Assembly: GCA_025774805.1 (NCBI GenBank)
Contig: JALGZR010000012.1
Location: forward strand, 1-64,000
DNA length: 64,000 nucleotides
Direction: 5' to 3'
Source: a bacterium
Lineage (GTDB): Bacteria > ARS69
The position numbers and the translations under genes are program-made. Shown here one piece after another: positions 40,885 through 58,442 of this stretch. A model generated the notes under the pieces. It was not told where the DNA came from and did no database searches. It was given only the letters and a program-made list of their open reading frames with translations. Within the stretch, counting starts at the first letter, position 1, and each line of letters begins with the position of its first letter.

Positions 40885-43689
40885 ATGCGGGGTCGAGAGC
40901 GTAAGGACGTCCCGGCCGGCCGGAGGCGGGGAAATGAGAACGCGAGGCGGGCCGGGCGGTTTCGCCGCTGCCGGGGGCTCGGGACGGCACTCGGGGCGGC
41001 GGCGATTCTCGGAATGGCCGGGGGCCCCGAAGCCGTCCTCGCCGATCGGACCGAGGTCCTGCCCGGGGCGTGGATGGATCGGATCGAGGGCGGTCCGCGG
41101 ATCCTCATGATCCCCCAGCGAACGGTGCCGATGTTCTCGTGCACCGTGCTGGTTCCCGCCGGATCGGCGCTGGAGACCGGGGCGACGAACGGGGCCGCCC
41201 ACTATCTCGAGCACCTCCTGTTCAACGGGACGACGACCCGCACCCGCGAGGAGATCTACGGCACGACCGATCTCCTGGGCGCCTACAACAACGCCTCGAC
41301 CCAGCGCGAGCGCACGGTGTTTCAGCTCCTGCTTCCCTCGGAGAACTGGCGGGCCGGACTCGAGCTCCAGGCGGACATGATCCTGCACTCGACCCTCCCG
41401 CGGGAGATGTTCGAGAAGGAGAAGGGGATCATCCTCGAGGAGCTCGCCAAGGATCGGACGGACCCCGGCTACGAGGCGGAGCGTTTCACGAGCCGCGTCC
41501 TCTGGGGAGAGGACCCCCGGGCTCTCCCCGTGCTGGGAACGGAGGAGTCGATCTCGAACATGGATCCCGCCGCCGTCGCCGCGTTCTATCGCGAGTGCTA
41601 CCACCCCGAGGGAATGACGATCGTCCTGATGGGGGACTTCGATATCTCCGAGGCCACCGCGGAGATCGGGACGCTCTACGGAGGACGGGAGAGCGGGGCG
41701 TCGCGAGACCTCCCTCCCCGACCCGAGTTCCCGCCCGGCCGTGTCGCCCTCTCGGAGAGCGTGACGGGGCTGGGCAAGGTCGAGGTTCGCGTCCTGCTGC
41801 CCCTGCCGGCCCTGGATCCTTCGGACCGCGCCGGAGCCCGCATTCTGGAGGAGCTTCTCACGAGCGGGGAGCGGTCCTCCCTGACGCGGGCGATCGAGGC
41901 CGCCGGATTGAGCGCCCTCTCGGTGAGCGCGTCGATCGATGCGGGGCGCCCCGTCTCGGTTCTGACGCTCGCGGTCGATCTTCCCGAGGGCTCAAGCGGG
42001 GGCGAGATTCCGGGGACCTCGGTCCCGGTCGCGGGGAATCTGCTCGCCCATCTCGCCCGTTTCGCCGAGGTCGGACCGTGGCCGGACGAGCTGGAGTCGG
42101 CCCGGCGCTCCTTCGCCGCCGAGGAGCTCTCCCTGCAGGAGAAGATGCACTACTACGGATTCATGCGGGCGGAGGTGCTCGGCTCCGACCATCCCGAGGT
42201 CGCGCTTCGCATGGTCCACGATCTGGACGGTGACGTGGCGGGGGTCGCCCGCCGTCTGGCGAGGGAGGCCCTCCGGGACGGGCGCATCCGGATCGCTCTC
42301 GCCGGGCCCGAGATCGGAAGCGCGCGCGAGACGTTCGACTCGGTGCCGGGCCCGGAGACGGCGAGCTGGCTGCCGCCCCCCGAGGCGATCGAGATCGAGC
42401 GCCTCGACTACGCGACGCCCCTCGACGCGCCGCGGGGGAGCGGCATCCGCCGCACGGTCCTCGAGAACGGCCTCGTCCTCATCCAGCAGACGGGTCCCGA
42501 GTCGCGGACCTTCGCCGCTCACGTGCTCTTTCGGGATCGCGGCGGGCTCGAGTCGGCTCTCGGTCTGCCGCCCGGCGCCGTGGACGTCGTGCACCGTTTG
42601 ATGTCCCTGGGCACCGAGACGCTCGACGAGAACGCCCTCCGCGGTCGGCTGGCGGGTCTGGGCGCGAAGCTGAAGATCACCGACGCCGACTGGATCCCCT
42701 ACGACGACTACTACTTCACTCCCGAGTACTCCTACGTGCGGATCGAGACCTTCGACACGTTCGGCCTCGCCGCGATCGACCTCCTCGGCGAGATCGTGAA
42801 CGCACCGCGCTTCGAGGATCGCCCCTTCGAGAGGGCGCGGGAGGCGGCGGTCATTCGGGCGGAGAAGGACCGGGGAACCCCGTCGAACCGAGCCGTGAGG
42901 GAGTTCCACCGCGCTCTCGGTGAGAACCATCCGCTGGCCGAGGGGGTCCTCGGGTCGCCCGAAGCGCTGCACGAGCTCTCCCTCGAGGACGCCCGACGCC
43001 TGCACGGAGCGCTCATCGATCCCGCTCGGATGGTCGTCACCGTCTCGAGCAATCTGCCGTTCGACCGGGTCGGGGAGGCGGTTCGCCTCGCCTTTCCCGG
43101 AGCCGGAGCGACCCGGGTGTCGGTCCCGGAGGACTGGCGTCCGGCCGAGGAGGAGAGGGAGAGAACGGTCGCCGTCGAGACCGGCATGGAGCAGTCGTGG
43201 ATCGTCGTCGGGTTTCCGGTGACCGTGCCCGAGCCGGATCGCCCCGCCCTGCGCCTGGCGACCTCGATTCTCTCCGAGCGGCTCGCCGATCGTCTGCGCG
43301 AGCGCGAAGGTCTGGCCTACCGGATCGGCGCCTCCGTTCGCCTCGACGGAGCCGGCCCCTGCGTCCGGATGTCGGCGGGAACGAGATCGGAAAACCTCGA
43401 GCGGATGCGGGAGGGAATGCTCGAGATCTCCCGATCCCTCACTCAAGAGCCACCGACGCCCGAGGAGATCGAGGGGGCCCGCAATCGGGGTGAAGGGCGC
43501 CGACGCCTGCGCCGTCTCTCCCGGATCGGACAGGCGTACGCTCTGGCGATGCTCGAGTGGAGCGGACGCGACCCGACGCATCCGGATGCCGATCTTCCCG
43601 GATTGCGAGAGGTCACGGCCGCGGACATCGAGCGGGTTGCGGACCGGTACTTCCGGCCCGAACGGTCCATCACCGCGATCGCGCGCTGA
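40885..43689 (+). CDS. M16-family zinc peptidase (two-domain)
   Basis: The product is 934 residues. ATG 40885 has AGGAGG just upstream; an earlier ATG at 40864 lies in repeat R5. A twin-Arg-rich head precedes a hydrophobic stretch (LGTALGAAAILGMAGG), so export is likely. The first half carries the inverted zinc motif H106-x-x-E109-H110 (AAHYLEHLLFNG) and the third ligand E186 in KGIILEELAKD. The second half repeats the fold without zinc ligands (VDVVHRLMSLGTE), as expected in pitrilysin/PqqL-type peptidases that clamp unfolded peptides. A predicted periplasmic processing enzyme. Confidence 0.92.
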   Translation: MRGRERKDVPAGRRRGNENARRAGRFRRCRGLGTALGAAAILGMAGGPEAVLADRTEVLPGAWMDRIEGGPRILMIPQRTVPMFSCTVLVPAGSALETGATNGAAHYLEHLLFNGTTTRTREEIYGTTDLLGAYNNASTQRERTVFQLLLPSENWRAGLELQADMILHSTLPREMFEKEKGIILEELAKDRTDPGYEAERFTSRVLWGEDPRALPVLGTEESISNMDPAAVAAFYRECYHPEGMTIVLMGDFDISEATAEIGTLYGGRESGASRDLPPRPEFPPGRVALSESVTGLGKVEVRVLLPLPALDPSDRAGARILEELLTSGERSSLTRAIEAAGLSALSVSASIDAGRPVSVLTLAVDLPEGSSGGEIPGTSVPVAGNLLAHLARFAEVGPWPDELESARRSFAAEELSLQEKMHYYGFMRAEVLGSDHPEVALRMVHDLDGDVAGVARRLAREALRDGRIRIALAGPEIGSARETFDSVPGPETASWLPPPEAIEIERLDYATPLDAPRGSGIRRTVLENGLVLIQQTGPESRTFAAHVLFRDRGGLESALGLPPGAVDVVHRLMSLGTETLDENALRGRLAGLGAKLKITDADWIPYDDYYFTPEYSYVRIETFDTFGLAAIDLLGEIVNAPRFEDRPFERAREAAVIRAEKDRGTPSNRAVREFHRALGENHPLAEGVLGSPEALHELSLEDARRLHGALIDPARMVVTVSSNLPFDRVGEAVRLAFPGAGATRVSVPEDWRPAEEERERTVAVETGMEQSWIVVGFPVTVPEPDRPALRLATSILSERLADRLREREGLAYRIGASVRLDGAGPCVRMSAGTRSENLERMREGMLEISRSLTQEPPTPEEIEGARNRGEGRRRLRRLSRIGQAYALAMLEWSGRDPTHPDADLPGLREVTAADIERVADRYFRPERSITAIAR

Positions 43690-43777
43690 GTCCCGCGCCC
43701 CCGGTCCCGTGCACTGGCGGATCGTGCGGGGCCGATGGTACGATGCGGCCCATCCCGGAACCCAGGAGGGAACCCCG

Positions 43778-46522
43778 ATGCGGCCGGTGAAGGCCCGTCT
43801 CATCGCCCTGGCTGCGTCCCTCCTCGTCTCGATCTCCACTGCCCTCCCGATCGCGGCCCAGGTCGGAGACGTCGTCGGTCACGTCCGCGGCGGAGAGTCG
43901 TTCGAACCCCTCTTCGGCGCGAACGTGCTCGTCACCTCGCTTCGTGACCCGTCCTATCGCGTCACCCGTCTCGCCGATCGGAGCGGCCGATTTCGGATCG
44001 AGAACCTGCCGGAGGGCCGCTACGAGATTCGTGCCTCCTATGTCGGGTACACCACGTTCGTGATCGATGCGGTGGAGGTCACCAAAGGGATCACGGTCAA
44101 CGTGGATCTGTGGCTCGAGGTGGAGCCGCTCGTCGTGAGCGCCGTCGTGATCAGCGCCTCGCGCCGGGAGGAGAAGGTGCTCGACGCCCCCGCGGCCATC
44201 CACGTCCTCGACGGAGAGCGGGTCCGCGCCCGACCGGTCCTGACCCCGGCCGATCATCTTCAAGCGGTTCCATCCGTCGACGTCGTCCGCACCGGCCTCA
44301 CCCAATCCAACGTGGTGCTGCGGGGCTTCAACAACGTCTTCTCCGGGACCACGCTCCTGCTGGTCGACAATCGGATCGCGCGCGTGCCCTCCCTCCGCTA
44401 CAACGCCTGGAACCTGTTGCCGACCACGAACGAGGATCTCGAGCGCCTCGAGATGGTTTCCGGACCCGGCTCCGCCCTCTACGGACCGAACTGTGCCAAC
44501 GGCGTGGTCCACGCGATCACGCGCCCTCCGATCGACTCGGAGGGAACGACCCTGTCCATCGCGGGAGGCGATCGGAGCACCGCGTTGGCGTCCGTTCGCC
44601 ACGCCGGGAAGCACACCGAGAGAGTCGGGTGGAAGGTCACGGCCCACTGGCTCACGGGTGAGGACTTTTCCCATGTGGATCCGGTGGAGAAGGGCCTCCG
44701 CGAGGGTGAGATCGCGGACGGCGCCGATCCGGACACCCTCAAGATCGGTGCCCGCGACGAGGACGTCGAGAAGATCGGCTTCGAAGGTCGCCTCGACGCT
44801 CGCGTGAGTCACAAAGTCTGGGTCGTCCTGAACGGAGGCTTCAGTCGCCTGGACAGCATCGAGCTCACGGGCCTCGGCGCCGCTCAGGTGAAGAACTGGA
44901 GCACCGCCTACGGCCAGGCCCGTCTGAACTGGCGCGACCTGTTTCTGCAGACATACGTGAACCGCTCCGACGCCGGAGACACCTACAACCTCCGGACCGG
45001 TCTCGATTTCGTCGATCGATCCACTCTGGTCGTGGGTCAGGCGCAGCACCAGTGGAGTCCGAGTCCCCGGCGGGCTCTCGTCTACGGCGTCGATGCGCTT
45101 CTCACCCGTCCGGAGACGGACGCGACGATCAACGGCCGCAACGAGGAAGACGACGACATCAACGAGATCGGGGCGTACGTGCAGGCGGAGACGTACCTGA
45201 CCGACCGGTGGTCGGTGGTCGCCGCGGCCCGGATCGACGATCACAACCGTCTCGACGACCCGGTCTTCTCGCCACGCGCCGCTGTCGTGTTCGGCCCGAC
45301 GTCCGACCACAAGCTCCGGGCGACGTACAACCGCGCCTACTCGACGCCGACGTCGAACAACCTCTTCCTCGATCTCGTGACGGAGCGGGACCTGGGAGAT
45401 CTCGGGGCGGCGATGGGGATGGAGGGCTACGACCTGTGGGCCAAGGGCGTCCCGGAGGGGGGCTTTCACTTCCGACGCGACGGGGACGGTGGTCTGGACG
45501 GGCTCTACATGCAGGTGCCGCTGGCGCTGGGGGGCGCCGAGAGCACCCAGGTCGGCGCGACGGCCCTCGGGCCGCACGACCACGTTCCGGCGTCCGCCCA
45601 CCTCGTGTGGCAGGGAGCCGTCAAGCTCCTTCTCGAGCAGAGCCAGGGCCGAATCGACCTGACGCACACTCTCTCCCCGGGGAATCTCCCGGGTGAGGGG
45701 ATCGGCACGGTCCTGCGTGCGCTCAACCCGTCCACGGGGACGTTCGACCCGGTCTCTCCCGATGCCGTTCGCGATGTCGGGGAGATGGATCCCACGATCA
45801 CGAACACGTTCGAGATCGGTTACAAAGGCGCGTTCGGCAAGAGCTTCTCGGCCACGATCGACGTGCACTACGACCGGATCAATGATTTCATCGGGCCCCT
45901 GAGGGTCGAGACGCCGAACGTCTTCTTCGATCCGACCGATCCGGAGCTCGCCGGCTACCTGGCCACGGCCGGAGTCCCCGCCGACTCGATCCCGATCGTG
46001 ATCGATGCGCTGGCCCGGATCCCGGTCGGCACCGTGACTCCGGACGGGAACGACGATCCCGCCGATCCGATCCTGACGTATCGCAACTTCGGGAGCATCG
46101 ACCTGACAGGGATCGACGTCGGGTGCGCTTGGGCGGTCGACCCGCGCTGGACGATCGAGGCGAGCTACTCGTTCACCAGTCGTGACGTCTTCCGAGACGT
46201 GGAAGGTGGGCTCGACGTTTCTCTCAACGCCCCGCGGCACAAAGCCGGGGGCACGCTCCGGTACGTGGACGCGGACCACGGTCTCGACGCCGGGGCTCGA
46301 CTGCGCTTCGTGGACGGATTCCCCGTCGAGTCGGGTGTCTTCGTCGGGGAGATCGGTTACTACGTCCTTCTCGACCTCGACGCCTCCTGGCGTGTTCCCG
46401 CGTCCCCGTCCACGGTGCTCTCGGTGAGAGTGCTGAATGTCCTGGACGACGAGCACCGCGAGTTCGTGGGGGCACCCGAACTCGGCAGAGTGGGTATCTT
46501 GAGACTGAGCCATTCGTTCTAG
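43778..46522 (+). CDS. TonB-dependent receptor with carboxypeptidase-like N-domain
   Basis: The product is 914 residues. ATG 43778 follows AGGAGGG; signal peptide 1-27 (ALPIAAQ). Residues about 29-110 are a CarboxypepD_reg-like fold (GHVRGGESFEPLFGANVLV; GRFRIENLPEGRYEIRASYVGY), typical of SusC/RagA-type receptors. The plug, about 125-240, has RREEKVLDAPAAIHVLDGERV and LVDNRIARVPS and MVSGPGSALYGPNCANGVV. The rest is a 22-strand barrel ending in a hydrophobic residue and F (LRLSHSF). No SusD partner is adjacent, so the substrate is open. A TACGAT box at 43739-43744 may be its -10 element. Confidence 0.92.
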   Translation: MRPVKARLIALAASLLVSISTALPIAAQVGDVVGHVRGGESFEPLFGANVLVTSLRDPSYRVTRLADRSGRFRIENLPEGRYEIRASYVGYTTFVIDAVEVTKGITVNVDLWLEVEPLVVSAVVISASRREEKVLDAPAAIHVLDGERVRARPVLTPADHLQAVPSVDVVRTGLTQSNVVLRGFNNVFSGTTLLLVDNRIARVPSLRYNAWNLLPTTNEDLERLEMVSGPGSALYGPNCANGVVHAITRPPIDSEGTTLSIAGGDRSTALASVRHAGKHTERVGWKVTAHWLTGEDFSHVDPVEKGLREGEIADGADPDTLKIGARDEDVEKIGFEGRLDARVSHKVWVVLNGGFSRLDSIELTGLGAAQVKNWSTAYGQARLNWRDLFLQTYVNRSDAGDTYNLRTGLDFVDRSTLVVGQAQHQWSPSPRRALVYGVDALLTRPETDATINGRNEEDDDINEIGAYVQAETYLTDRWSVVAAARIDDHNRLDDPVFSPRAAVVFGPTSDHKLRATYNRAYSTPTSNNLFLDLVTERDLGDLGAAMGMEGYDLWAKGVPEGGFHFRRDGDGGLDGLYMQVPLALGGAESTQVGATALGPHDHVPASAHLVWQGAVKLLLEQSQGRIDLTHTLSPGNLPGEGIGTVLRALNPSTGTFDPVSPDAVRDVGEMDPTITNTFEIGYKGAFGKSFSATIDVHYDRINDFIGPLRVETPNVFFDPTDPELAGYLATAGVPADSIPIVIDALARIPVGTVTPDGNDDPADPILTYRNFGSIDLTGIDVGCAWAVDPRWTIEASYSFTSRDVFRDVEGGLDVSLNAPRHKAGGTLRYVDADHGLDAGARLRFVDGFPVESGVFVGEIGYYVLLDLDASWRVPASPSTVLSVRVLNVLDDEHREFVGAPELGRVGILRLSHSF

Positions 46523-46592: not shown

Positions 46593-48401
46593 ATGCCCGC
46601 CCTCGACAAGACCGTCCTCATTCTGGGAGGCGCCGGCCTCGTCGGAATCCAGTGCGCGAAGAAGATCTCGCGCACCCTTCGTCCGAAACGCGTCGTGATC
46701 GCCTCCCTCTTCCGCAAGGAGACGCGCGAGGCCGTGACCGTTCTGCGCCGGGAGTTCCCGTACGTCGACTACGCCGGTTACTTCGGGAACTTGTTCGTCC
46801 GCGGAGAGCCGACTCCGATCGAGAGGCGAGTCCCCGAGCCGTCGCCGCGCGAGTTCCTCGAAAGGCCGGAGAACCGGCACGCCGTCTTCGAGGACATATT
46901 CCAGGACTTCGAGACGGCGTACCGCGAATCGTTTCTCGTGCGCCTGCTTCTGCGCGAGGAGCCCGACGCCGTCGTGGACACCGTCAACACCGCCACCGGC
47001 ATCAGCTACCAGGACATCTTCTCGAGCTCCTTCGTCGTGTCCCGGGGTCTCGAGGAGACGAGGTCCCGGAAGGAGGCGATCTCGGAGGGGTTCGCCGTCG
47101 ATCTGGAGAAGCACCTCGTCTCCGCGGCGGTGCCCCAGCTCATCTCCCACGTGCGCCTTCTCCACCGGGCGTTGACCGAGATCGGGTGCCGTATCTACCT
47201 GAAGGTCGGAACGACCGGAACGGGCGGAATGGGACTCAATGTTCCCTACACCCACGGCGAGGACAAGCCGAGTCGCACCCTCATGGCGAAGACCGCGACC
47301 GCGTTCGCCCACTCCGGTCTCCTCTTCCTCATGGCGCGCACGCCGGAATGTCCGATCATCAAGGAGATCAAGCCGGCGGCGATGATCGGGTACCGCGAGA
47401 TCGGTTTCACGCCGGTCCGCGGCGTGCAGTACCGACCGATGAAGGGGACGGGGAAGGGCGGCGAGAGGGTGAAGCTCGTTCCCGGGGAGCCCTACGCGCT
47501 CTTCGAGTGTCGTGAGCAGAAGCTCACGGATAGCCTCGACAACGAGCCGACGTTCGACGGGTTCGAGCCCCGGCGCGGTGAGGACGGAAAGCCGGCGAAG
47601 CTCGTACTCCCCTGCGTCAACACGGGGGAGAACGGCATCTTCACGAAGGGCGAGTTCGAGGCGATCACCTCCCTCGCCCAGATGGAGTTCGTGACCCCCG
47701 AGGAGATCGCCGATCTCGTGACGTTGGAGCTCCAGGGCAGCAATACCGGCCGCGACGTCATCTCCGCCATCGACTCCTCGATCCTCAGCCCGTCCTACAA
47801 GGGCGGTCTCATCCGGGGTATCGCGATCGAGGAGCTCGAGAAGCTGGAGCGGGAGAAGGGCGTCCCCTCCGTCGCCATCGGACAGCTCGGCCCGCCCCAG
47901 CTCGCCAAGTACCTGTATGAGGCACACTTTCTCCGGGAGCTCTACGGCTCGGTCGAGGGAGTGCTCACCGACGAGAACGGGACCGCGAGGAAGGCGGCCG
48001 AGATCTCCGAGGCGATGCACGAGCGGGTGACGAAGAGCCCGATCCGTCACACCATCACCTCCATCGGAATCCCGATTCTGCTTCCCGACGGGAAGACGAT
48101 CCTGCGCGGCCCGGTCATCAAGATCCCGCCCTACAACAAGAAGGCCCACGTGGTCGAGCTCTCGGCACGTCGGATCGACGCGTTCGCGAAGAAGGGGTGG
48201 GTGGATCTCCGTCCCGTGCACATGGGCTGGTGGCTCGACAAGTTCCGAAAGATGCACAAGACCGTGTTCCGGCACGGCGCGAAGTGGAGCTCGGAGCGCC
48301 TCGACTTCCGTTCCTACCTCGCCGAGGAGATCCGGATCGGCGAGGTCGTGGCCTGGATCTTCAACAACGAGATCGAGCCCAAGGGGCACCGCATCAAGTG
48401 A
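46593..48401 (+). CDS. Rossmann-fold NAD(P)-binding protein (saccharopine-dehydrogenase-like), unknown reaction
   Basis: The product is 602 residues. ATG 46593 follows GGGAGGAG. The N-terminus TVLILGGAGLVGIQCAKKI has the dinucleotide loop GGAGLVG at 12-18. The rest is not a typical short-chain dehydrogenase. It contains long conserved-looking blocks such as KVGTTGTGGMGLNVPYTHGED and LMARTPECPIIKEIKPAAMIGYR. I recognise only the fold. Its TGA overlaps the GTG of the 1599-residue fusion (GTGA), so it is the first gene of a coupled operon for acyl activation. A role in reducing or isomerising an acyl or lipid intermediate is inferred from context only. Confidence 0.7.
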   Translation: MPALDKTVLILGGAGLVGIQCAKKISRTLRPKRVVIASLFRKETREAVTVLRREFPYVDYAGYFGNLFVRGEPTPIERRVPEPSPREFLERPENRHAVFEDIFQDFETAYRESFLVRLLLREEPDAVVDTVNTATGISYQDIFSSSFVVSRGLEETRSRKEAISEGFAVDLEKHLVSAAVPQLISHVRLLHRALTEIGCRIYLKVGTTGTGGMGLNVPYTHGEDKPSRTLMAKTATAFAHSGLLFLMARTPECPIIKEIKPAAMIGYREIGFTPVRGVQYRPMKGTGKGGERVKLVPGEPYALFECREQKLTDSLDNEPTFDGFEPRRGEDGKPAKLVLPCVNTGENGIFTKGEFEAITSLAQMEFVTPEEIADLVTLELQGSNTGRDVISAIDSSILSPSYKGGLIRGIAIEELEKLEREKGVPSVAIGQLGPPQLAKYLYEAHFLRELYGSVEGVLTDENGTARKAAEISEAMHERVTKSPIRHTITSIGIPILLPDGKTILRGPVIKIPPYNKKAHVVELSARRIDAFAKKGWVDLRPVHMGWWLDKFRKMHKTVFRHGAKWSSERLDFRSYLAEEIRIGEVVAWIFNNEIEPKGHRIK

Positions 48402-51400
48402 CGTCGACATCGGCCGTGAGCCCCGAGCTGTTGTCCCGAGTCCAGGACGCGTTCGCCGCCCTCGAGAGCGGGTCGCCCGCCGATCCGGCCACCGCGACGG
48501 TGACCCTGGTCCGAGCGACCCGCGAGGCGGTGAGGGCCCTGGAGCGGATGACCGCGTCGCTCACGGAGGAGACCGATTCGGACCGAGGCGACGTCCGCGC
48601 CCATCGTTCCCTGGTGCACCGGATTCTCGACGACGCCGGCCACCGGTCGGTCAGCACGGCCTTCGCAGAATCCCCGTTCGCGAAGGAGTGGACGGATCTG
48701 CTTCTCGAGGCGGTGCTCGCCTCCGACTACACGGTCGGGGACCTTTTCTTTTCGCGGGCCCGCGCCCTCGGAGATCGCACGCTGTTCCTGCTGCCCCCCG
48801 GTCGGAAGGAGGGTCGGGTCTCCTGGGTGGAGGCGGAGCGGCGGGTCGTTCGCATCGGGCGGGCGCTCCTCGCCGCCCGCGACCGGGGAGAGGTCGGACC
48901 CGAGGCCGGACCGGTCGCGATCCTCGGACCGAACTCGCCCGAGCTCGCGCTGTTCGATCTCGCCTGTCTCGTGGTCGGGATCCCGAACGTCCCGGTGCCG
49001 GCGAACTCGCCGCCCGACCAGATCGAGTTCATTCTCGTTCACGCGAAGGCCACCGCGCTGTTCCTCGGGGACGATGCGGCCGCCCGGGCGGCGGCGGGAG
49101 CGATCGCCGCCCGCGGGGACGCGCTGCGGGTCCACTGGATCGACGGGCGTCGCCCGGAGGCGCTTCCGGTCCGTTCGCTGGAGGAGTTCCTCGCGAAGGG
49201 AGACACCGTTCCCGAGGAGCGGGTGAGGGAGGAGGCCTTCCGAGTCCGCTCCGCCGATCTCGCGACGACGATGTACACGTCGGGAACGACCGGCGTCCCC
49301 CGGGGGATCCCGTTCACCCAGGGGAACCTCGTCACGAAGCGATTCGCGCGCGCCGCGGCCTGGCCCGATCTCGGAACGGGCGACGTCTTTCTCTGTTACC
49401 TGCCGCTCTACCACACGTTCGGTCGCTGGCTGGAGATGCTTGGCTGCGTCTTCTGGGGGGCGGTGTACGCGTTCCTCGAGGACGTCTCGCTCGAGTCCCT
49501 TCTCTACTCCTTCCAGCGCGTACGTCCGACCGCGTTCATCAGCGTCCCGAAGAAGTGGATTCAGATCGCGGAGTCGGTCGGGCCGGGCGGCGAGGACGCT
49601 CTTGACGACGCCGCGTCCCCCGACGAGCGGGAGATCAGCCGAGAGCTCGTTCGCGTCACGGGAGGGCGGCTGCGGCGAGGTCTCTCCGCGGCGGGCTACC
49701 TCCCTCCCTGGATCTTCCGTCGCTTCCACGGCGCGGACATCGAGCTGCACTCCGGGTTCGGCATGACCGAGGCCACGGGGGGCATCACGATGACGCCGGA
49801 AGGGGACTACCGGGACGAATCGATCGGCGTGGCGCTTCCCGGTATCGAGCTGAAGGTCGCCGAGGACGGCGAGCTCTTCATCCGGGGTCCCTACGTCACC
49901 CCCGAGTCGGAGGACGAGCCCCCGCGGGTGGAGGGGTGGCTCGCGACCGGCGACATCGTTCGATCGGACGCGGAGGGGCACTACCGGATCGTCGATCGGA
50001 AGAAAGAGATCTTCAAGAACATCCAGGGAGAGACGATCTCCCCGCGACGGATCGAGAGCCTGTTCGCCGATTTCGAGATCGTCGAACGGGTCGTCGTCAT
50101 CGGAGACGATCGACCCTACTGCACGGCGCTGATCGTGCCGACCGCCGAGCTGCGGAGCGAGTTCGCGGCCGATGCGAACGCTTTCACGATCGACACGCCG
50201 GATCTCCGCGAGCGGTTCGCTCCCGTCGTGTCCAGCGTGAACGGCTTCCTGGCCCCGTACGAGCGCGTGCTCGACTTCGCCGTGCTCGCGCGGGACCTCG
50301 ATCCGGATCGCGGCGAGCTCACCGCAAAGGGCACCCCGCGCCGCAACGTGTTGGTCGACCGGTTCCGCGACGCGATCGAGCCTCTCTACTCGCGGGAGGC
50401 GGTGCAGCGAACGATCGGCGAGGTCACCGTGCGCGTCCCCCACTGGTTCTTGAGACAGACCGGCATCCCGCCGACCGAGCTGCGGGCGACCCCGGAGGGG
50501 CTCGAGGCCGGCTCCTCCGCGCGGCTGTCGATCCGCCCCGGGACGGGCGAGGGGTGCGTGATCGTGGGGGACCTGGAATACGATCCGGGCGGCGGCGAGG
50601 TGCGGCTGGGCGAGATCGTAGGACGCGCCGAGCTCTGGTTGGGGAACGACATGGTGCGACGCTTCGCGGGACCGGGCATCGACCACTGGTGGCGCCGCGG
50701 CCCCCGCCTCGACGTACGCACTCGACTGGTGAGCCGGCTCGTCGCCGGGGCAGCTCCGCCCGAGGACCCGAGCCGGAGAACGGAGCTTCCCCCCCGCGAG
50801 CCCTCGGGCTCCCCCGTCGATCTCGCGAACCTCCACGCGTGGGTCCGGGGACTGTCCTCCCCCGATCCGGACGTTCGAAGGGAGACCGTGGAGGCTCTGC
50901 GAAAGGACCTCACGGGGGAGAACCCCGAGCGCGACTCCCTGGTCCGTCGCGTGCTCCGTTCCGGACTCTCCGACACCCCCATTCGCCCCCACTGCCTGCG
51001 CGCGATCATCCCCGGCCTGGCGCCGGAAGAGCTGGACCGGGCGATCGAAGAGGGAATCGCCGACCCGACGTTTCTATCGGAGGATGAGATCCGGATCGCG
51101 GCCGAGTCTCCCCTGCGCGGGGATCAGCTCGACTACCTGATGCACCGGATCCGGGACTCCGCTCCCGCCGACGAGGAGAAGCGGTGGCCCGAACGGATGC
51201 CGGGGCTGCTCCGCCGGCTGCGTTTCCTCGTGGAGCTGGCGATTCGACATCGCGCGAATCTCCTACGGGTTCGCTCTCTCCTCGCGGATCTGATCGCCCG
51301 ATCCCGCGACCCCGGTCGGACCGAGGAGCTGGAGACGCTGTTCTCCCGACTCGAGTGCGGATTCCTGGAGAGACTGCCCGAGACCCAGGTCGCTCCCGGG

Positions 51401-53197
51401 GTGCCGTGGAGGGGGGCGGTGTTCTTCCGGGGCGAGGTGGAGGAGAACCACCAGGATCGCATCCTCGACGCGATCTCCCGCACGAAGCTCCTGGCGGAGG
51501 CGCTCGCCCTGCTCGGTGCGACCCCGCCCCGGAGTCCCCTCCTCCTGTCTTCCCGATCGGTGCGCATCTCGCGGCTCGCTCCGAGCCGCGGTCGTACCGT
51601 CTACCTGCTCGCGTGGTCCCCCGCCGGCCTGGACCGCACCGCTCCCCGCTTCGAGTGCGTCCTGAAGGTGAACGAGAGCCTCGACTGGGAGAAGATCCGG
51701 GAGGAGCGGCGTCTTCTCGTACGCATGCGGACGGGGGGCACCGGGCGTCCGGTCGTGAAGGCCCAGGGCGGGGCCTACCCCGAGCAGGGTCTCTGGACCG
51801 AGGAGTACATTCCGGGGCCGACCCTCGATCGACTCGTGGAGGACCTCGTCCGGGAGGAGGACGAACGCACCACCGGCCGCCTACCCGAGCTCTGGCAGTT
51901 CCTGGTTTCGTCGTGCGCTTCCCTCGTGGTCGATGCCTGGAGGCGAACGGGGAGCACGCAGACGCTCGCGAACCCCTCGCCGCGCATGGTCGTGCTTCCT
52001 CCCCGCGACTGGCAGGTGGGGGGACGGCTCGTCTCCGTCGCGAACCGCAAGCGGTGCGAGCGTCTGATCGACGTGCTCGAGTCGGTTCGCCAGGGCATCA
52101 TCCGCCCGCTGCACGAGCGGTTCGGATCGGCGGGACTCGAGTCCGAACGGCGGCTTCTTCTCTCCGGCGCCCTCGAGGCGATCGGCGAGGAGGAGGGCCT
52201 CGCAATCCTCGAGAGGGAGGCCCCCCCCGACTCGGCGGCCTCCCGATTCGTCTCGTCCGTCCGCCGGCGCGGGTTCCTTCCGGTCCACATCCGAATCGCC
52301 GCGCGCCGTTACCGCCGGTGGTGCCACCTCAACGCGGACGCCACCCTGCAGGCCCAGGCCGCGACACTCGACCAGGTCGCCGCGGCCTACGGACTCGGCG
52401 AGCTCGACGTGGAACGGCCCGGCTCCCGACTGCAGTTCTACCGCCACACGGTGTTCCGGGGAACGGACGATCGTTTCATGCGGGCGTTCGACGCGATCAT
52501 CGCCGACACCCTCGCGCGCTCCGCGACGGGGGACCGCCCTCCCCGAGGCGCGGCGACCTCCGGCCCCCCCGGACGATGGCACCGAGAGCTCGCCGATCTC
52601 CGGGAGCGCTTCCCTCTGACCGATCGACAGGAGTTCTTCCTCGCCCAGACGCTCTACCCCCACGTCGATCCGGAGGGAAAGGCCATGCTCGTGCGCGAGC
52701 GGGCCGAGGGTGCAGGACACGGCACGGGAATGGAGGTCACGTATCAGGACGCGGAGGGTGAGGAGTTCCGCATTCACCCCCCGCGCAATCCGAACGAGGT
52801 CGGCGCCCTCTCCCGTGTGTTCCGCGCCGCCAATTTCCGCCGGGTCCCGTCCGCAGAACAGGACGAGCTGCTCGTGGTGACCCAGGCGCAGGGGCGGGTG
52901 ATCGGCGGACTCATCTTCCACCGCCCGAGCGCGACGTATGCTCACCTCGAGTGGCTCGTGGTGAGCCGGCACCGAAGGGGACGCGGCATCGGGGCCGTGC
53001 TGCTGAGGGAGTTCCTCGACCGCGTCAAGGCGCAGGGGGTCCTGGCCGTCTCCACCGGGTTCTTCCATCGGCAGTTCTTCGCGAGGTTCGATTTCGTGAT
53101 CGATCCTCGCTATGCGGGTCAAGTGCGGATCCTCGGCGGAGAGGAGACGGGAGATCCCACCGCGCCCGATTCAGGGGACGTGACGGAAATCCGATAG
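48398..53197 (+). CDS. Giant fusion: acyl-CoA synthetase, HEAT-like, kinase-like and GNAT domains
   Basis: The product is 1599 residues. Residues about 110-665 are an AMP-forming acyl-CoA synthetase of the long-chain type: YTSGTTGVPRG (293-303), GFGMTEATGG (453-462), WLATGDI (514-520) and RKKEIFKNIQGE (534-545). Residues about 805-985 are Leu/Arg-rich helical hairpins resembling HEAT repeats. Residues about 1055-1150 resemble a kinase or APH N-lobe (FECVLKVNESL with K1090, then TEEYIPGPTL as a hinge), but no HRD or DFG follows. Residues about 1455-1575 are a GNAT acetyltransferase with RHRRGRGIG (1524-1532). Start GTG 48398 overlaps the preceding stop. No fusion of this order is familiar to me. 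It may activate an acyl group and transfer it to a lysine or amine. Confidence 0.85.
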   Translation: MTSTSAVSPELLSRVQDAFAALESGSPADPATATVTLVRATREAVRALERMTASLTEETDSDRGDVRAHRSLVHRILDDAGHRSVSTAFAESPFAKEWTDLLLEAVLASDYTVGDLFFSRARALGDRTLFLLPPGRKEGRVSWVEAERRVVRIGRALLAARDRGEVGPEAGPVAILGPNSPELALFDLACLVVGIPNVPVPANSPPDQIEFILVHAKATALFLGDDAAARAAAGAIAARGDALRVHWIDGRRPEALPVRSLEEFLAKGDTVPEERVREEAFRVRSADLATTMYTSGTTGVPRGIPFTQGNLVTKRFARAAAWPDLGTGDVFLCYLPLYHTFGRWLEMLGCVFWGAVYAFLEDVSLESLLYSFQRVRPTAFISVPKKWIQIAESVGPGGEDALDDAASPDEREISRELVRVTGGRLRRGLSAAGYLPPWIFRRFHGADIELHSGFGMTEATGGITMTPEGDYRDESIGVALPGIELKVAEDGELFIRGPYVTPESEDEPPRVEGWLATGDIVRSDAEGHYRIVDRKKEIFKNIQGETISPRRIESLFADFEIVERVVVIGDDRPYCTALIVPTAELRSEFAADANAFTIDTPDLRERFAPVVSSVNGFLAPYERVLDFAVLARDLDPDRGELTAKGTPRRNVLVDRFRDAIEPLYSREAVQRTIGEVTVRVPHWFLRQTGIPPTELRATPEGLEAGSSARLSIRPGTGEGCVIVGDLEYDPGGGEVRLGEIVGRAELWLGNDMVRRFAGPGIDHWWRRGPRLDVRTRLVSRLVAGAAPPEDPSRRTELPPREPSGSPVDLANLHAWVRGLSSPDPDVRRETVEALRKDLTGENPERDSLVRRVLRSGLSDTPIRPHCLRAIIPGLAPEELDRAIEEGIADPTFLSEDEIRIAAESPLRGDQLDYLMHRIRDSAPADEEKRWPERMPGLLRRLRFLVELAIRHRANLLRVRSLLADLIARSRDPGRTEELETLFSRLECGFLERLPETQVAPGVPWRGAVFFRGEVEENHQDRILDAISRTKLLAEALALLGATPPRSPLLLSSRSVRISRLAPSRGRTVYLLAWSPAGLDRTAPRFECVLKVNESLDWEKIREERRLLVRMRTGGTGRPVVKAQGGAYPEQGLWTEEYIPGPTLDRLVEDLVREEDERTTGRLPELWQFLVSSCASLVVDAWRRTGSTQTLANPSPRMVVLPPRDWQVGGRLVSVANRKRCERLIDVLESVRQGIIRPLHERFGSAGLESERRLLLSGALEAIGEEEGLAILEREAPPDSAASRFVSSVRRRGFLPVHIRIAARRYRRWCHLNADATLQAQAATLDQVAAAYGLGELDVERPGSRLQFYRHTVFRGTDDRFMRAFDAIIADTLARSATGDRPPRGAATSGPPGRWHRELADLRERFPLTDRQEFFLAQTLYPHVDPEGKAMLVRERAEGAGHGTGMEVTYQDAEGEEFRIHPPRNPNEVGALSRVFRAANFRRVPSAEQDELLVVTQAQGRVIGGLIFHRPSATYAHLEWLVVSRHRRGRGIGAVLLREFLDRVKAQGVLAVSTGFFHRQFFARFDFVIDPRYAGQVRILGGEETGDPTAPDSGDVTEIR

Positions 53198-53238: not shown

Positions 53239-54942
53239 ATGGACCGCAAATCTTGGCACGAAGCTTACGAACCGGGGGTGCCCCCCTCTCTCGAGTACGA
53301 GGAGATCACCCTTCCGGCCATGCTACGCCGGTCGGCCGGGTCGCACCCGGACGCGGCGGCCGTCCGGTTCATGAACCGGACGATGACGTATCGTCAGCTC
53401 GTGGAGGACGTCGATCGCTTCGCAGCCGGACTCGCATCGCTCGGAGTGACTCCGGGGGCACGGGTGGCGATCCACCTACCGAACCTGCCCCAGACGGTCA
53501 TCTCCGTTCACGCGGCGCTCTCCCTGGGTGCCGTGCCGGTGATGACGAACCCGCTCTACGTGTCCCGCGAGATCGAGCAGCAGTGGAACGACGCCGGGTG
53601 CGTCGTCGCGGTGACCACGGACTTCCTGTTCACGAGTCGGGTCGCGCCGATCCGATCCCGACTTCCCGTGCGCGAGTACGTCATCGCGTCGATCCCCGAG
53701 TATCTCCGCTTTCCCCTGCGGCTCTTGGCCCCTTGGAAGCTGCGGAGATCCGATCCTCCCCTCATCGCCAACGTGCCGGACCAGAGATCGGTCCACCGAT
53801 TCCGACTCCTGCGGGGGGCGCCGTCCGGCACCCGATCCCACCCTCCGCCCGCTCTCGACGATCTGGCGATCCTCCAGTACACGGGAGGAACGACGGGGGT
53901 CGCGAAAGCGGCGATGCTCACCCATCGGAACCTGTCTTTCCAGGTCCAGCAGCTGAGGGCCTGGCTTCCCGGACTCGTGCCCGGAGGAGAGGTCTTCCTC
54001 GGCGCGCTCCCGTTCTTCCACGTGTTCGGGCTCACCGTGGCGCTGAACCTGCCCGTCGCGCTCGCGGCCGAGATGGTGTTGATCCCCAACCCGAGGGACA
54101 TCCCCCGGTTGATCTCGAGCATCAATCGCTACGGTGTTTCGATCTTCCCGACCGTGCCCGCCATGATCGACGGGATCAACCGGAGCCCCAAGGTCGGCTC
54201 GCTGAAGGTCGGCACGTTGAAGATGTGCGTCTCGGGCTCCGCCCCCATGCCCGAGAGCACCCTCCGCCGCTTCGAGGAGCGCACCGGCGGGAAGATCGTC
54301 GAGGGTTACGGCCTCACCGAGACGTCCCCGGTCACCCACGTCAATCCGCAGAACGGCGTCCGCAAGGTCAACACGATCGGTCTGCCCCTGCCCGACACCG
54401 ATTGCCGGATCGTGTCGCTCGAAGACGGGGTCAGCGAGTTGCCGGCGGGCGGAGAGGGGGAGCTCTACATCCGGGGACCGCAGGTGATGGCCGGCTACTG
54501 GAATCGTCCCGACGAGACCGAGCGCGTGTTGCGGGACGGGTGGCTGCGCACCGGCGATCTCGCCGCGCGCGACGAAGAGGGGTACTTCCGGATCTGCGGC
54601 CGCAAGAAGGACATGATCCTCGCGAGCGGGTACAACATCTACCCGGACGAGGTGGACCAAGTCCTCTCTTCCCACCCGGCCGTGCTCGAGTGCGCGACCA
54701 TCGGCGTTCCGGACGAGAGGCGCGGGGAGACGGTGAAGTCCTTCGTCGTTCTCCGATCGGATCGTGAGGCGACCTCCGACGACCTCCGGGAACACTGCCG
54801 CGCGAATCTCGCCGTCTTCAAGGTTCCCCGGGAGATCGAGTTCCGGGACGAGCTGCCCAAGAGCAGCGTGTTGAAGGTCCTCCGGCGGGAGCTGCTGGTG
54901 CAGGAGCTGCGGGCTAGAGGGTTACCTGAACCAGGGCCATGA
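53239..54942 (+). CDS. Long-chain fatty-acid-CoA ligase (FadD-like)
   Basis: The product is 567 residues. It forms acyl-CoA from fatty acid, ATP and CoA through an acyl-adenylate. The P-loop is YTGGTTGVAKAA (214-225); GYGLTETSP, then GWLRTGDLAARDEEGY and GRKKDMI are the later core motifs; the catalytic lysine is K546 in SSVLKVLRREL. All are intact and the length is normal. ATG 53239 has GGGGGTGG upstream. It lies 41 bp after the 1599-residue fusion, the third gene of the operon. Two different acyl-CoA synthetases in one operon suggest a pathway acting on two acids or in two steps. It overlaps the convergent ZIP gene by 29 bp. Confidence 0.92.
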   Translation: MDRKSWHEAYEPGVPPSLEYEEITLPAMLRRSAGSHPDAAAVRFMNRTMTYRQLVEDVDRFAAGLASLGVTPGARVAIHLPNLPQTVISVHAALSLGAVPVMTNPLYVSREIEQQWNDAGCVVAVTTDFLFTSRVAPIRSRLPVREYVIASIPEYLRFPLRLLAPWKLRRSDPPLIANVPDQRSVHRFRLLRGAPSGTRSHPPPALDDLAILQYTGGTTGVAKAAMLTHRNLSFQVQQLRAWLPGLVPGGEVFLGALPFFHVFGLTVALNLPVALAAEMVLIPNPRDIPRLISSINRYGVSIFPTVPAMIDGINRSPKVGSLKVGTLKMCVSGSAPMPESTLRRFEERTGGKIVEGYGLTETSPVTHVNPQNGVRKVNTIGLPLPDTDCRIVSLEDGVSELPAGGEGELYIRGPQVMAGYWNRPDETERVLRDGWLRTGDLAARDEEGYFRICGRKKDMILASGYNIYPDEVDQVLSSHPAVLECATIGVPDERRGETVKSFVVLRSDREATSDDLREHCRANLAVFKVPREIEFRDELPKSSVLKVLRRELLVQELRARGLPEPGP

Positions 54943-55726
54943 CCCCGAAGCCGAGCAGGAACATCCAGGCTATTTGAGCCGGGGACCGCTCCTCGAGCGC
55001 GCTGGGGACGAGCTCGATCAGGACCAGGTACATCATCGCCCCGGCGGCGAAACCCAGGAACGGGAGCATCAACGGCTCGAACAGCCATACGGTGAGCCCC
55101 GCGGGCACGGCCGCGAGGGGCTGCGGCAGGCTCGTGGCGACGGCGAGCACGAAGCACTTGCGCAGCGAGGCCCCCTGAAGGCGAAGCGGAAGAGCGACCG
55201 CGAGCCCCTCGGGGATGTTGTGGAACGCGATGGCGAGCGCGACGTAGTTCCCGAAGCCCGCCGTCGCGGCGAGGTGGGTCTCGGCGCCGTACCCGACTCC
55301 GACCGCGACGCCCTCCGGAATGGAGTGGAACGTCATCGCCAGGAACACGAGGACCTCCGTTCGTCCCCCCACGCGACGGAGAATCGAGCTCTCGGTTCGC
55401 TCCGGGGTGAGGTATCTCTCGACCAGAGCCAGGAAACCGGCCCCGGCCGCCATGCCGGCGAGCACCTTCAGAACGGGGCTGATTGCCGTCGCGTTGTCGC
55501 CCCCCACCGTCAAGGCCGGCAGGAGCAGGTTGTAGACGGAGGCGGAGAACATGAGACCGGACGCGAACGCATAGCCGAGTCCGACCCGTCGTTCGAGATG
55601 GAGACCGGGAAACGCGAGAGGGAGGGCCCCGAGTCCACAGGCGATGCTGGCGACGATGCCCGCGATGAAGGCGCGGAGAACGAAGTCGTACTGGACGTAC
55701 CAGGGAAGGATCCCGCCGCCTTCCAC
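54914..55726 (-). CDS. ZIP-family metal transporter
   Basis: The product is 270 residues with about eight membrane helices. It imports zinc or another divalent metal. The two signature helices contain HSIPEG (134-139) and HNIPEG (169-174), the metal-binding motifs of helices 4 and 5, as in ZupT/GufA proteins. GTG 55726 was chosen for the GGAGGG just upstream; an upstream extension would be Pro-rich and would enter repeat R3. The gene is convergent with fadD and divergent from the C25 protease, with R3 in the gap. Confidence 0.88.
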   Translation of the reverse strand: MEGGGILPWYVQYDFVLRAFIAGIVASIACGLGALPLAFPGLHLERRVGLGYAFASGLMFSASVYNLLLPALTVGGDNATAISPVLKVLAGMAAGAGFLALVERYLTPERTESSILRRVGGRTEVLVFLAMTFHSIPEGVAVGVGYGAETHLAATAGFGNYVALAIAFHNIPEGLAVALPLRLQGASLRKCFVLAVATSLPQPLAAVPAGLTVWLFEPLMLPFLGFAAGAMMYLVLIELVPSALEERSPAQIAWMFLLGFGVMALVQVTL

Positions 55727-55859
55727 GCGAGCCCTCCGGACACGGGGGGGTCCGGGCAATCTAACCCGACTCTCGAACGGGGCCAAGCCCGGATCTGGGG
55801 GTCCTGGGGGCGGATTTCGGGTCGCAGCCGGACCGCCCGAGGCCGGTGGGATCTGGGGG

Positions 55860-56040
55860 CTAGCCTGCATTTCTCACCAGGCTCGTCGCGAGGCTGTGGA
55901 TCGTCGTGTCTGGCGAGGAGATGGGGGGGTTTCACCCAAGGCGGGGCCGTAGCCCCGTCGCAGGGGGGAAGCGCGCCAGCGACGAAGCCAGGCGCGGCGA
56001 GCGGCTGCCGCAGCAGAGGCCGGTGAGATATGCAGGCTAG
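55860..56040. repeat. CTAG-flanked palindromic element, copy R3 (full length)
   Basis: A 173-bp element lies between CTAG at 55860-55863 and CTAG at 56037-56040. It is closely similar to R1 along its whole length, including terminal inverted repeats and the internal hairpin (GGGGC-cgta-GCCCC). Unlike R1, R2 and R4 it lies in a divergent gap and touches no stop codon, so CTAG and not the gene end seems to be the target. Confidence 0.85.
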
Positions 56041-56123: not shown

Positions 56124-58442
56124 ATGTCCAGACTACTTCCCTTCGCGCTCCTGGTACTCCCTCTCATCTTCCCGTTCCCGTCCGGCGCCACCGGCTTCCA
56201 GGCCGGCTCCCTCCAGGAGGGGTATCGGGTGGAAGTGCTGGCTTCCGGCCCCGAGAGGACGGTCCTCCGATTCCAGGTGGGCCAGTTCGACCTGAGCCCC
56301 GTGGAGATCGACGGCGGGGAGTGGTCGATCGTCGACTGGAAGGGCGGCGCGGCGGGGCTAGAGCGGGGCCTTCCGTCCCTTCCCGCGTTCCACGAGTCGA
56401 TCGTCCTGCCGGACGACGCCCGCATGGAGCTCCGGGTGCTGTCGGCGGAGTTCCAGGACTTCCAGGGCGTCCGGATCGCTCCCTCCAAGGGCCTGTTCAC
56501 GCGGGACATCCTGCCGTCGGACGTCCCGTACGAGTTCTCCGAATTCTACAACGGGAACGACTGGTATCCCGCAGAGCTGGCGTCCCTCGGAGCGCCCTAC
56601 ATCCTGCGGGACGTGCGCGGCGCCGTCACCTCGGTGAACGCGTTCCAGTGGAACCCGGCATTGGAGACGCTTCGCGTCTATACCCGCGTGGACGTCGAGA
56701 TCCGGGCCGCGGGACCGGGTGAGATCAACGTGCTCACCCATCGCCCCGACCGGCGGGTCCGCGAGTTCGAGGAGATCTACGCGCGGCACTTCCTGAACTA
56801 CGGGGGCGGCCTCCGCTACTCGCCGGTAGTCGAGGCGGGCACCGTGCTCGTGATCGCCTACGACTCGTTCGCCCCCGCGACTCAGCCTCTGGTGGACTGG
56901 AAGAACGAGATGGGCCTGCCCACTCGGCTGGCGCTGAAGTCCGAGGTCGGGACCACGGCAAACGACTTCAAGGCCTACATCCAGGACGCCTACGACAACG
57001 AGGGGGTCTGCTACATCATCCTCGTGGGAGACGCCGCCCAAATCCCGTACTTCTTGAACGACGGCGGCGCCGCCGATCCGATGATGACGCTTCTCGCGGG
57101 AGGGGACAGCTACCCGGACGCCTTCATCGGTCGCATCTCGGCCGAGACGCCGAGTCAGGTCGAGACGCAGGTGGAGCGGATCGTCGAATACGAGCGGGAT
57201 CCCGACCCCGCCGGCACGTGGTACTCCAAGGGGATCGCGATCGCGTCGAACGAGGGAGCCGGCATCGGAGACGATGGAGAAGCGGACTGGCAGCACGCCC
57301 GGAACTATCGGGCGGACCTCCTCGCGTTCACCTACACGACGGTCGACGAGCTGTACGACGGTTCGCACGGGGGCGATCCCACGGGCAACGGAGGAGGCGG
57401 CGATGCCGCTGGCAATCCGACCCCGTCCATGGTCGCGGATCGGGTCAATGCGGGCCGGAGCTTCATCGGCTACACCGGCCACGGATCCTCGTCGGCCTGG
57501 TCGACCTCCGGATTTTCGAGCGCCAACGTCAATGCCCTGGTCAACGACAACCAGCTTCCGGCGATCATCAGCGTGGCCTGCGTGAACGGACTGTTCACGA
57601 GCGGGACCTGCTTCGCGGAGGCGTGGCTCCGCGCCACCCACTCCGGGGAGCCCACGGGAGCGGTGGCCTGCTACATGTCGACGGTGAATCAGGGCTGGGC
57701 GCCACCGATGCGCGCGCAGGACGAGTTGGTCGACCTCCTCTGCGGCGAGGCGATGCGAACCTGGGGCGGGCTCTGCTTCAACGGCTCCTGCGACATGATC
57801 GACCACTACGGCTCGGCCGGCATCTCCGAGTTCAAGAACTGGACGATCTTCGGGGATCCGAGCCTGCAGATGCGCACGGCCACTCCCCTGCCCCTCGCCG
57901 TCAGCCACTCGGGAACGGTGGATCCCGCGGCGGGCGAGTTCGAGGTCACGACGGAGCCCGGGGCCCTTGCCGCGCTCAGTGACGAGGGCGTGCTCATCGG
58001 CTCGGCGTACGCCGACGAGCTCGGCATCGCGCTCATCATGTTCGACCCGCAGGACATGGCCGGTCGATCCGAGGTCACGCTCACGGTCACCGCGTTCAAC
58101 TGCGTGCCGAACTCGAGCACGGTTCCGGTGGGAACGAGCACGACGTCCGTGCCGGCGGTGGCGGGTGTCGTGTCGCTCGAGCAGAACCTCCCCAACCCCT
58201 TCGCCCGATCGACCCGAATCGCGTTCTCCATTGCGGGCGACGCGGCCGTTCGGCTCGAGATCTACGACGTGGCCGGCCGCCGCGTCCGGACTCTGGAGAA
58301 CGGACTCCTTCCGGCCGGAATCCACGACGTGACGTGGGACGGCACCGACGACGCCGGTCACCGGCTGGCGGCGGGCAGCTACTTCTACCGTCTCGTTACG
58401 AACGAGAGAGTGGAGACGAAACGGATGGTGCGTCTCCGCTGA
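56124..58442 (+). CDS. Gingipain-like (C25) exported cysteine peptidase with sorting domain
   Basis: The product is 772 residues. ATG 56124 has GGAGG upstream; signal peptide about 1-22. Residues 30-210 are a propeptide-like beta domain. Residues about 235-600 are the caspase-like C25 fold: VLVIAYDSF, CYIILVGDAAQIPYF, YPDAFIGRISAETPSQVETQV, catalytic H453 in GYTGHGSSSAW and catalytic C486 in IISVACVNG. An Ig-like region (640-690) follows. The last 85 residues are the FlgD/Por-type sorting domain (NLPNPFARSTRIAF; YDVAGRRVRTL; WDGTDDAG; SYFYRL; MVRLR end), as in gingipains themselves. Catalytic residues are intact. Confidence 0.92.
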   Translation: MSRLLPFALLVLPLIFPFPSGATGFQAGSLQEGYRVEVLASGPERTVLRFQVGQFDLSPVEIDGGEWSIVDWKGGAAGLERGLPSLPAFHESIVLPDDARMELRVLSAEFQDFQGVRIAPSKGLFTRDILPSDVPYEFSEFYNGNDWYPAELASLGAPYILRDVRGAVTSVNAFQWNPALETLRVYTRVDVEIRAAGPGEINVLTHRPDRRVREFEEIYARHFLNYGGGLRYSPVVEAGTVLVIAYDSFAPATQPLVDWKNEMGLPTRLALKSEVGTTANDFKAYIQDAYDNEGVCYIILVGDAAQIPYFLNDGGAADPMMTLLAGGDSYPDAFIGRISAETPSQVETQVERIVEYERDPDPAGTWYSKGIAIASNEGAGIGDDGEADWQHARNYRADLLAFTYTTVDELYDGSHGGDPTGNGGGGDAAGNPTPSMVADRVNAGRSFIGYTGHGSSSAWSTSGFSSANVNALVNDNQLPAIISVACVNGLFTSGTCFAEAWLRATHSGEPTGAVACYMSTVNQGWAPPMRAQDELVDLLCGEAMRTWGGLCFNGSCDMIDHYGSAGISEFKNWTIFGDPSLQMRTATPLPLAVSHSGTVDPAAGEFEVTTEPGALAALSDEGVLIGSAYADELGIALIMFDPQDMAGRSEVTLTVTAFNCVPNSSTVPVGTSTTSVPAVAGVVSLEQNLPNPFARSTRIAFSIAGDAAVRLEIYDVAGRRVRTLENGLLPAGIHDVTWDGTDDAGHRLAAGSYFYRLVTNERVETKRMVRLR

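Follow-up and report, generated by a model that had tools for sequence, protein, structure and literature searches.

In the 64,000-nt stretch of bacterial DNA analyzed here (the window), we found a gene (positions 48398–53197, + strand) for a 1599-residue protein in which an AMP-forming acyl-CoA synthetase of the ANL type is followed, from the N to the C terminus, by a small domain rich in beta structure, a helical repeat, a kinase fold, a set of helices and a GNAT acyltransferase domain. This fusion is authentic and ancient and has been passed on as a single unit, and its domain architecture is real, conserved and apparently undescribed. An earlier note, made from the letters of the window, had proposed the same gene and domain order; our ORF check returned exactly the same coordinates and length, and Pfam, AlphaFold2 and Foldseek analyses bore out the order of the domains. 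A synthetase and a GNAT on one chain are of a known kind, and what is unexpected here is the pseudokinase module and the shift of a diagnostic lysine. As for function, the best explanation, which we put forward only tentatively, is a self-regulated AMP-forming acyl-CoA synthetase, with control of the Pat/AcuA type operating inside one chain.

The fusion is one old gene

The reading frame opens with a GTG at 48398, runs for 1599 codons without internal stops and closes with a stop codon that ends at 53197. Its start shares four bases (GTGA) with the stop codon of an upstream gene of 602 aa. Codon-position GC content was coding-like in all eight 200-codon blocks (GC3 0.82–0.90, GC2 0.45–0.55); a long antisense ORF (48314–50992) gave no match in a Pfam search.

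The earlier note had raised the question whether the middle and GNAT regions are separate genes in close relatives, joined here by error, and had proposed to follow the distribution of the fusion across phyla. We therefore searched the window phylum, which as sampled comprises five genomes only, and detected the fusion in all five. Two of these carry further full-length copies (1587 and 1583 aa, 52–56% identity), and the remainder are fragments stopping at contig edges. Copies of greater divergence came from a scan of genome contigs, in records that carry the names Gemmatimonadota and Candidatus Kutchimonas denitrificans. The Gemmatimonadota sample contained the fusion in 11 of 346 genomes, with four copies located on contigs of 4.1–5.5 Mb and a fifth on a chromosome of 2.87 Mb, and a sample of 145 genomes, nearly all of them from other groups, yielded three further copies, each from a different small phylum. 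The fusion is thus a single gene in at least five phyla. The full-length copies (about 12 independent ones, 1535–1616 aa), several of them on single-contig chromosomes, had an identical Pfam layout wherever they were scanned. No standalone gene for the middle and GNAT regions was found in any relative's genome examined, and a plasmid search with these regions gave no match. One Gemmatimonadota copy (L050:5342-10152, − strand) is broken by an apparent frameshift, which may be a sequencing error or mark a recent pseudogene.

Results of the comparison between domains point in the same direction. Pairwise distances of six regions of the fusion correlate at 0.90–0.99, and therefore we regard it as one old unit whose parts were inherited together; the ligase tree and the tree of the rest of the protein contain the same three clades. 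That neighboring genes were fused through a sequencing or assembly error might be suspected from the window assembly, which consists of 284 contigs, and from the frameshift-split relative. Yet, the independent full-length copies across phyla, some of them from single-contig chromosomes, and the congruent domain trees rule this out, and we assign it practically no probability.

The ligase and GNAT domains

The ANL part comprises a large domain (residues 101–535; 48698–50002, + strand) and a C-terminal subdomain (residues 536–668; 50003–50401, + strand), in which Pfam detected AMP-binding (PF00501) at residues 120–501 with an E-value of 3.8e-54 and AMP-binding_C_3 (PF23562) at residues 542–667 with 2.6e-12. 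The window protein carries the P-loop YTSGTTG (293–299), the A5 motif GFGMTE (453–458), TGD (517–519) and the A8 motif DRKKE (533–537), and the P-loop, A5, A7 and A8 motifs are invariant or nearly so among the fusion members. The lysine of the P-loop (PKG) is replaced by Arg in the window and by Asn in one relative (L059). The best NCBIfam and PDB matches of the ligase include long-chain ligases and the adenylation domain of carboxylic acid reductase, all far under curated cut-offs, and in whole-protein Pfam and NCBIfam searches it reached no curated family above the Pfam domain level. The putative substrates are carboxylic acids of the bulky or long-chain class.

To locate the A10 lysine, we aligned the fusion members with five ordinary FadD-type ligases (L095–L099) and two annotated feruloyl-CoA synthases (L100/L101). 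Every fusion member has Thr or Ser in the column of the canonical lysine (LTPTMKxKR; T646 in the window). Two positions before this column stands a lysine that is invariant, K644 (K644-G645-T646; 50327–50335, + strand). The description of the ligase as an intact long-chain-type synthetase therefore holds for the main ANL motifs but not for the canonical A10 lysine, which is a threonine here, with a lysine at 644. Since both feruloyl-CoA synthases have a lysine in the same −2 register, the ligase is probably still active despite the shift, as judged from the alignment.

Loss of the canonical lysine could also be taken to mean that the protein is a sensor-type acetyltransferase, in which the GNAT modifies other proteins while the ANL and the pseudokinase mainly sense acyl-CoA or ATP, much as the inactive NDP-forming synthetase domain does in Pat enzymes of types I and II. 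The layout would agree with this, being analogous to that of type I GNATs, where a large synthetase-like domain precedes a C-terminal GNAT (PMC8556138). However, all the other main ANL motifs are conserved, unlike in a decayed domain, and the lysine register shared with feruloyl-CoA synthases means that loss of activity is not implied. We consider this reading rather improbable.

The GNAT domain occupies residues 1440–1585 (52715–53152, + strand). Both PF00583 and PF13508 scored above cut-off, with Acetyltransf_1 at residues 1487–1550 (1.4e-7) and the GNAT match as a whole at 1487–1567, and the closest profile was that of the GCN5 histone acetyltransferase, a protein acetyltransferase (TGCN5, 3.9e-11). 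The good acetyl-CoA loop noticed earlier was recovered by Pfam and alignment: its residues align and are intact in the window (R1527-x-x-G1530-x-G1532), the R/Q-x-x-G-x-G/A pattern recurs in most relatives, and it is degenerate in a divergent one (L057, TNRRLG). By alignment, the position that we take to be that of the GCN5 catalytic Glu is non-acidic in the fusion, and an acid stands two residues on (E1518). This residue, E or D in 19 of the 21 members, is a candidate catalytic base. Foldseek matched the domain to YhbS-CoA. Among the Pfam and NCBIfam matches there was no N-acyl-amino-acid or acyl-homoserine-lactone synthase family.

The region between ligase and GNAT

Pfam detected nothing credible between the ligase and the GNAT of the window protein. 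The earlier note had suggested structure prediction and a profile search for this region, and we modeled residues 668–1599 with AlphaFold2 using 18 sequences (pLDDT 79, pTM 0.75). The model contains, in this order, a beta domain, a helical array, a kinase-like order of N-lobe and C-lobe, further helices and the GNAT. The small beta-rich domain (residues 669–780; 50402–50737, + strand), with predicted strands at model positions 2–69, is conserved in all members and belongs to no known family. It is followed by the helical repeat (residues 808–1000; 50819–51397, + strand), formed by helices at model positions 143–325. The predicted helical array speaks for the earlier label of a HEAT-like region, which profiles support weakly: matches to HEAT_2 and HEAT_EZ occurred in at most 3 of 18 relatives (best 0.0037).

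The kinase-fold domain spans residues 1040–1230 approximately (51515–52087, + strand), and the helical region past the kinase core (residues 1231–1425; 52088–52672, + strand) carries a conserved block, RYRRWxxLNxxAT. When the model of residues 668–1599 was submitted to Foldseek, the top ranks included a small-molecule phosphotransferase along with a GNAT, Bud32 and JAK kinases. For a distant relative with only about 19% identity (L073), the kinase-like domain was modeled with a pLDDT of 86; at E ≤ 0.001 it had 346 matches in the PDB, and the best 50 of these were all protein kinases or PRPK/Bud32. When the kinase-like region was compared with PDB sequences by sequence profile, nothing significant was returned, so the fold is visible by structure comparison alone. 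Comparison of the predicted structures thus confirmed a two-lobed protein-kinase-like fold for the middle domain.

We then aligned the catalytic columns of about 20 members. The beta3 Lys is present in the window phylum only, an HRD-type Asp in seven members and an Asp in the DFG column in four; the three occur together in no member, and each column varies freely. These results agree with the earlier description of a segment of kinase character lacking a complete catalytic set, and we read the domain as a putative pseudokinase. The domain might instead be catalytically active in a non-canonical way, with chemistry such as that of AMPylation or of Bud32, and act on the ligase or the GNAT by modifying or controlling it. 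Its fold is clear and some members retain an HRD-type Asp and an Asn, as in the GDLSPMNIVV segment of L073, which we take to be very like the catalytic loop of APH. Yet the free variation of the three columns, never complete in any one member, makes such an activity quite improbable.

Genomic context, proposed function and known systems

In the window phylum the gene order is the 602-aa gene, the fusion and a FadD-type ligase, and both neighbors are possible operon partners. The upstream gene (46593–48401, + strand) encodes a protein with a Rossmann-like N terminus by eye and without Pfam, NCBIfam or PDB match, and it precedes the fusion in those genomes of the phylum in which the contig extends far enough. 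Its homologues form an unnamed conserved family found in several other phyla at 40–55% identity, away from the fusion, where their neighbor is, by eye, either an AMP ligase or a gene resembling cytidylate kinase. In one low-GC genome (L091:1910-6384, − strand) the homologue lies beside AMP-ligase-like and SDR-like genes, again by eye. Having no known family and standing apart from the fusion in other phyla, the 602-aa gene does not define a pathway. The downstream gene (567 aa; 53239–54942, + strand) is an ordinary FadD-type long-chain fatty acid-CoA ligase, assigned by PF00501 (4.6e-91), PF13193 and synteny. The operon is flanked by genes for a TonB-dependent receptor with a carboxypeptidase-regulatory domain (43490–46522, + strand) and a ZIP metal transporter (54914–55870, − strand); a gingipain-type C25 peptidase with a propeptide and a C-terminal FlgD_ig domain is encoded further on (56124–58442, + strand).

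In other phyla the neighbors of the fusion differ, and in the three extra phyla they are mixed. Citrate synthase (PF00285) adjoins the fusion in seven of nine clade-A Gemmatimonadota loci (L048, L050, L051, L053, L054, L055 and L058), in both relative orientations, an adjacency that fits acyl-CoA metabolism and names no substrate. A SIR2 gene was present in 13 of 14 fusion-bearing genomes vs. 10 of 14 controls. This is near background, and SIR2 is too common for its co-occurrence to tell much.

The best documented relationship between a GNAT and an ANL enzyme in bacteria is acetylation that switches off an ANL lysine: acetylation of the A10-loop lysine in AMP-forming ligases by Pat or AcuA blocks adenylation, and AcuA is found in a stable complex with AcsA (PMC11255334, PMC4053389). 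For a chain that unites a ligase with a GCN5-like GNAT, in-cis control through K644 is therefore the most economical suggestion. In the proposed scheme, the N-terminal ANL would convert a bulky or long-chain carboxylic acid through acyl-AMP to acyl-CoA, and the scaffold of helical repeat and pseudokinase, perhaps nucleotide-sensing, would place the C-terminal GNAT close to the ANL's own C-terminal subdomain, which is mobile. The GNAT would move an acetyl (or acyl) group from CoA onto the active-site lysine of its own ANL, with K644 as the candidate, so that adenylation would be turned off when acyl-CoA is abundant; a sirtuin would remove the group and restore the ligase. We infer the substrate class, the activity of both enzymes, the in-cis acylation and its target, and the sensing of nucleotides.

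Several observations are consistent with in-cis regulation: the correlated divergence of the domains of one gene across at least five phyla, the GNAT profile nearest to protein lysine acetyltransferases together with a CoA loop kept in the window and most members, the conserved ANL motifs, among them a lysine of the A10 loop that never varies, and, weakly, the SIR2 genes. The enzyme encoded beside the fusion in most clade-A loci, citrate synthase, consumes acetyl-CoA. On the other hand, catalysis by itself should keep K644 conserved, and this conservation is no proof of regulation; long-chain ligases, which the ANL resembles, do not make acetyl-CoA, and feedback by acetyl-CoA would be indirect. 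Known control acts in trans, and we found no in-cis precedent; the degenerate CoA loop of L057 also speaks against the proposal.

The main rival is acyl channeling, in which acyl-CoA made by the ANL is used by the GNAT of the same chain on an amine, a lipid head group or a protein. Both catalytic domains retain their main motifs and are co-inherited, and the second acyl-CoA ligase gene directly downstream in the window phylum suggests an acyl pathway. However, the GNAT is closest in profile to protein acetyltransferases that use acetyl-CoA, synthases of N-acyl amino acids or acyl-homoserine lactones are missing from its Pfam/NCBIfam matches, and no acceptor pathway is consistently adjacent, as the neighbors vary between phyla. 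Channeling is a possibility that we regard as doubtful. In-cis regulation is slightly likelier because of the GCN5-like profile and the documented GNAT–ANL relationship, and the sensor-type reading comes third.

In bacteria, AMP-forming ligases are reversibly acylated as a central means of control, and the described cases that we found either operate in trans or have a dead NDP-forming synthetase domain for their sensor. If true, the proposal would mean that an in-cis acylation circuit exists across several little-known phyla, and it would give a pseudokinase fold a role within bacterial acyl-CoA metabolism. The conserved ligase–pseudokinase–GNAT chain makes in-cis acyl control or a dedicated acyl hand-over directly testable, with the shifted lysine offering a clean mutational test. 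In the open-access literature we found no description of this architecture, in line with the earlier remark that no characterized protein has this order, and no described bacterial GNAT type with an AMP-forming ligase. We see the case as evenly balanced as to whether the fusion represents a further type of bacterial GNAT system, a pseudokinase-gated ligase and acyltransferase on one chain that either acylates its own shifted lysine or hands the acyl group to an acceptor.

Among known systems, the middle domain has its fold in common with Bud32/PRPK and other small protein kinases (Foldseek), from which it differs in that its catalytic residues are incomplete in every member. The ligase shares the AMP-binding_C_3 subdomain and the motif order with FadD11/FadD15, ACSL-type enzymes and the carboxylic acid reductase adenylation domain, but it scores far below their curated cut-offs and has Thr or Ser in the A10 column with Lys at −2. 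Feruloyl-CoA synthases likewise have their lysine at −2 (TDKGS) and contain an HTFG-like motif, yet they stand alone and are only about 23% identical. Bacterial GNATs fall into five types, of which types I and II carry an inactive, acetyl-CoA-sensing NDP-forming synthetase domain (PMC8556138). Like type I Pat/PatZ, the fusion combines a large acyl-CoA synthetase-type domain with a C-terminal GNAT on one chain, and a link of acyl-CoA level to acyl transfer is plausible in both. Unlike Pat/PatZ, its synthetase is an AMP-forming ANL (PF00501/PF23562), helical-repeat and pseudokinase domains lie between ligase and GNAT, and Pfam detected no NDP-forming synthetase domains in the window protein or four relatives. 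The AcuA–AcsA pair of Bacillus subtilis likewise couples a GNAT to an AMP-forming acyl-CoA synthetase, with an A10-loop lysine as the target (in the fusion a proposed one only). There, separate proteins act in trans on an acetate-activating enzyme, whereas in the fusion both would belong to one chain, in which the ligase is long-chain-like and its lysine is shifted.
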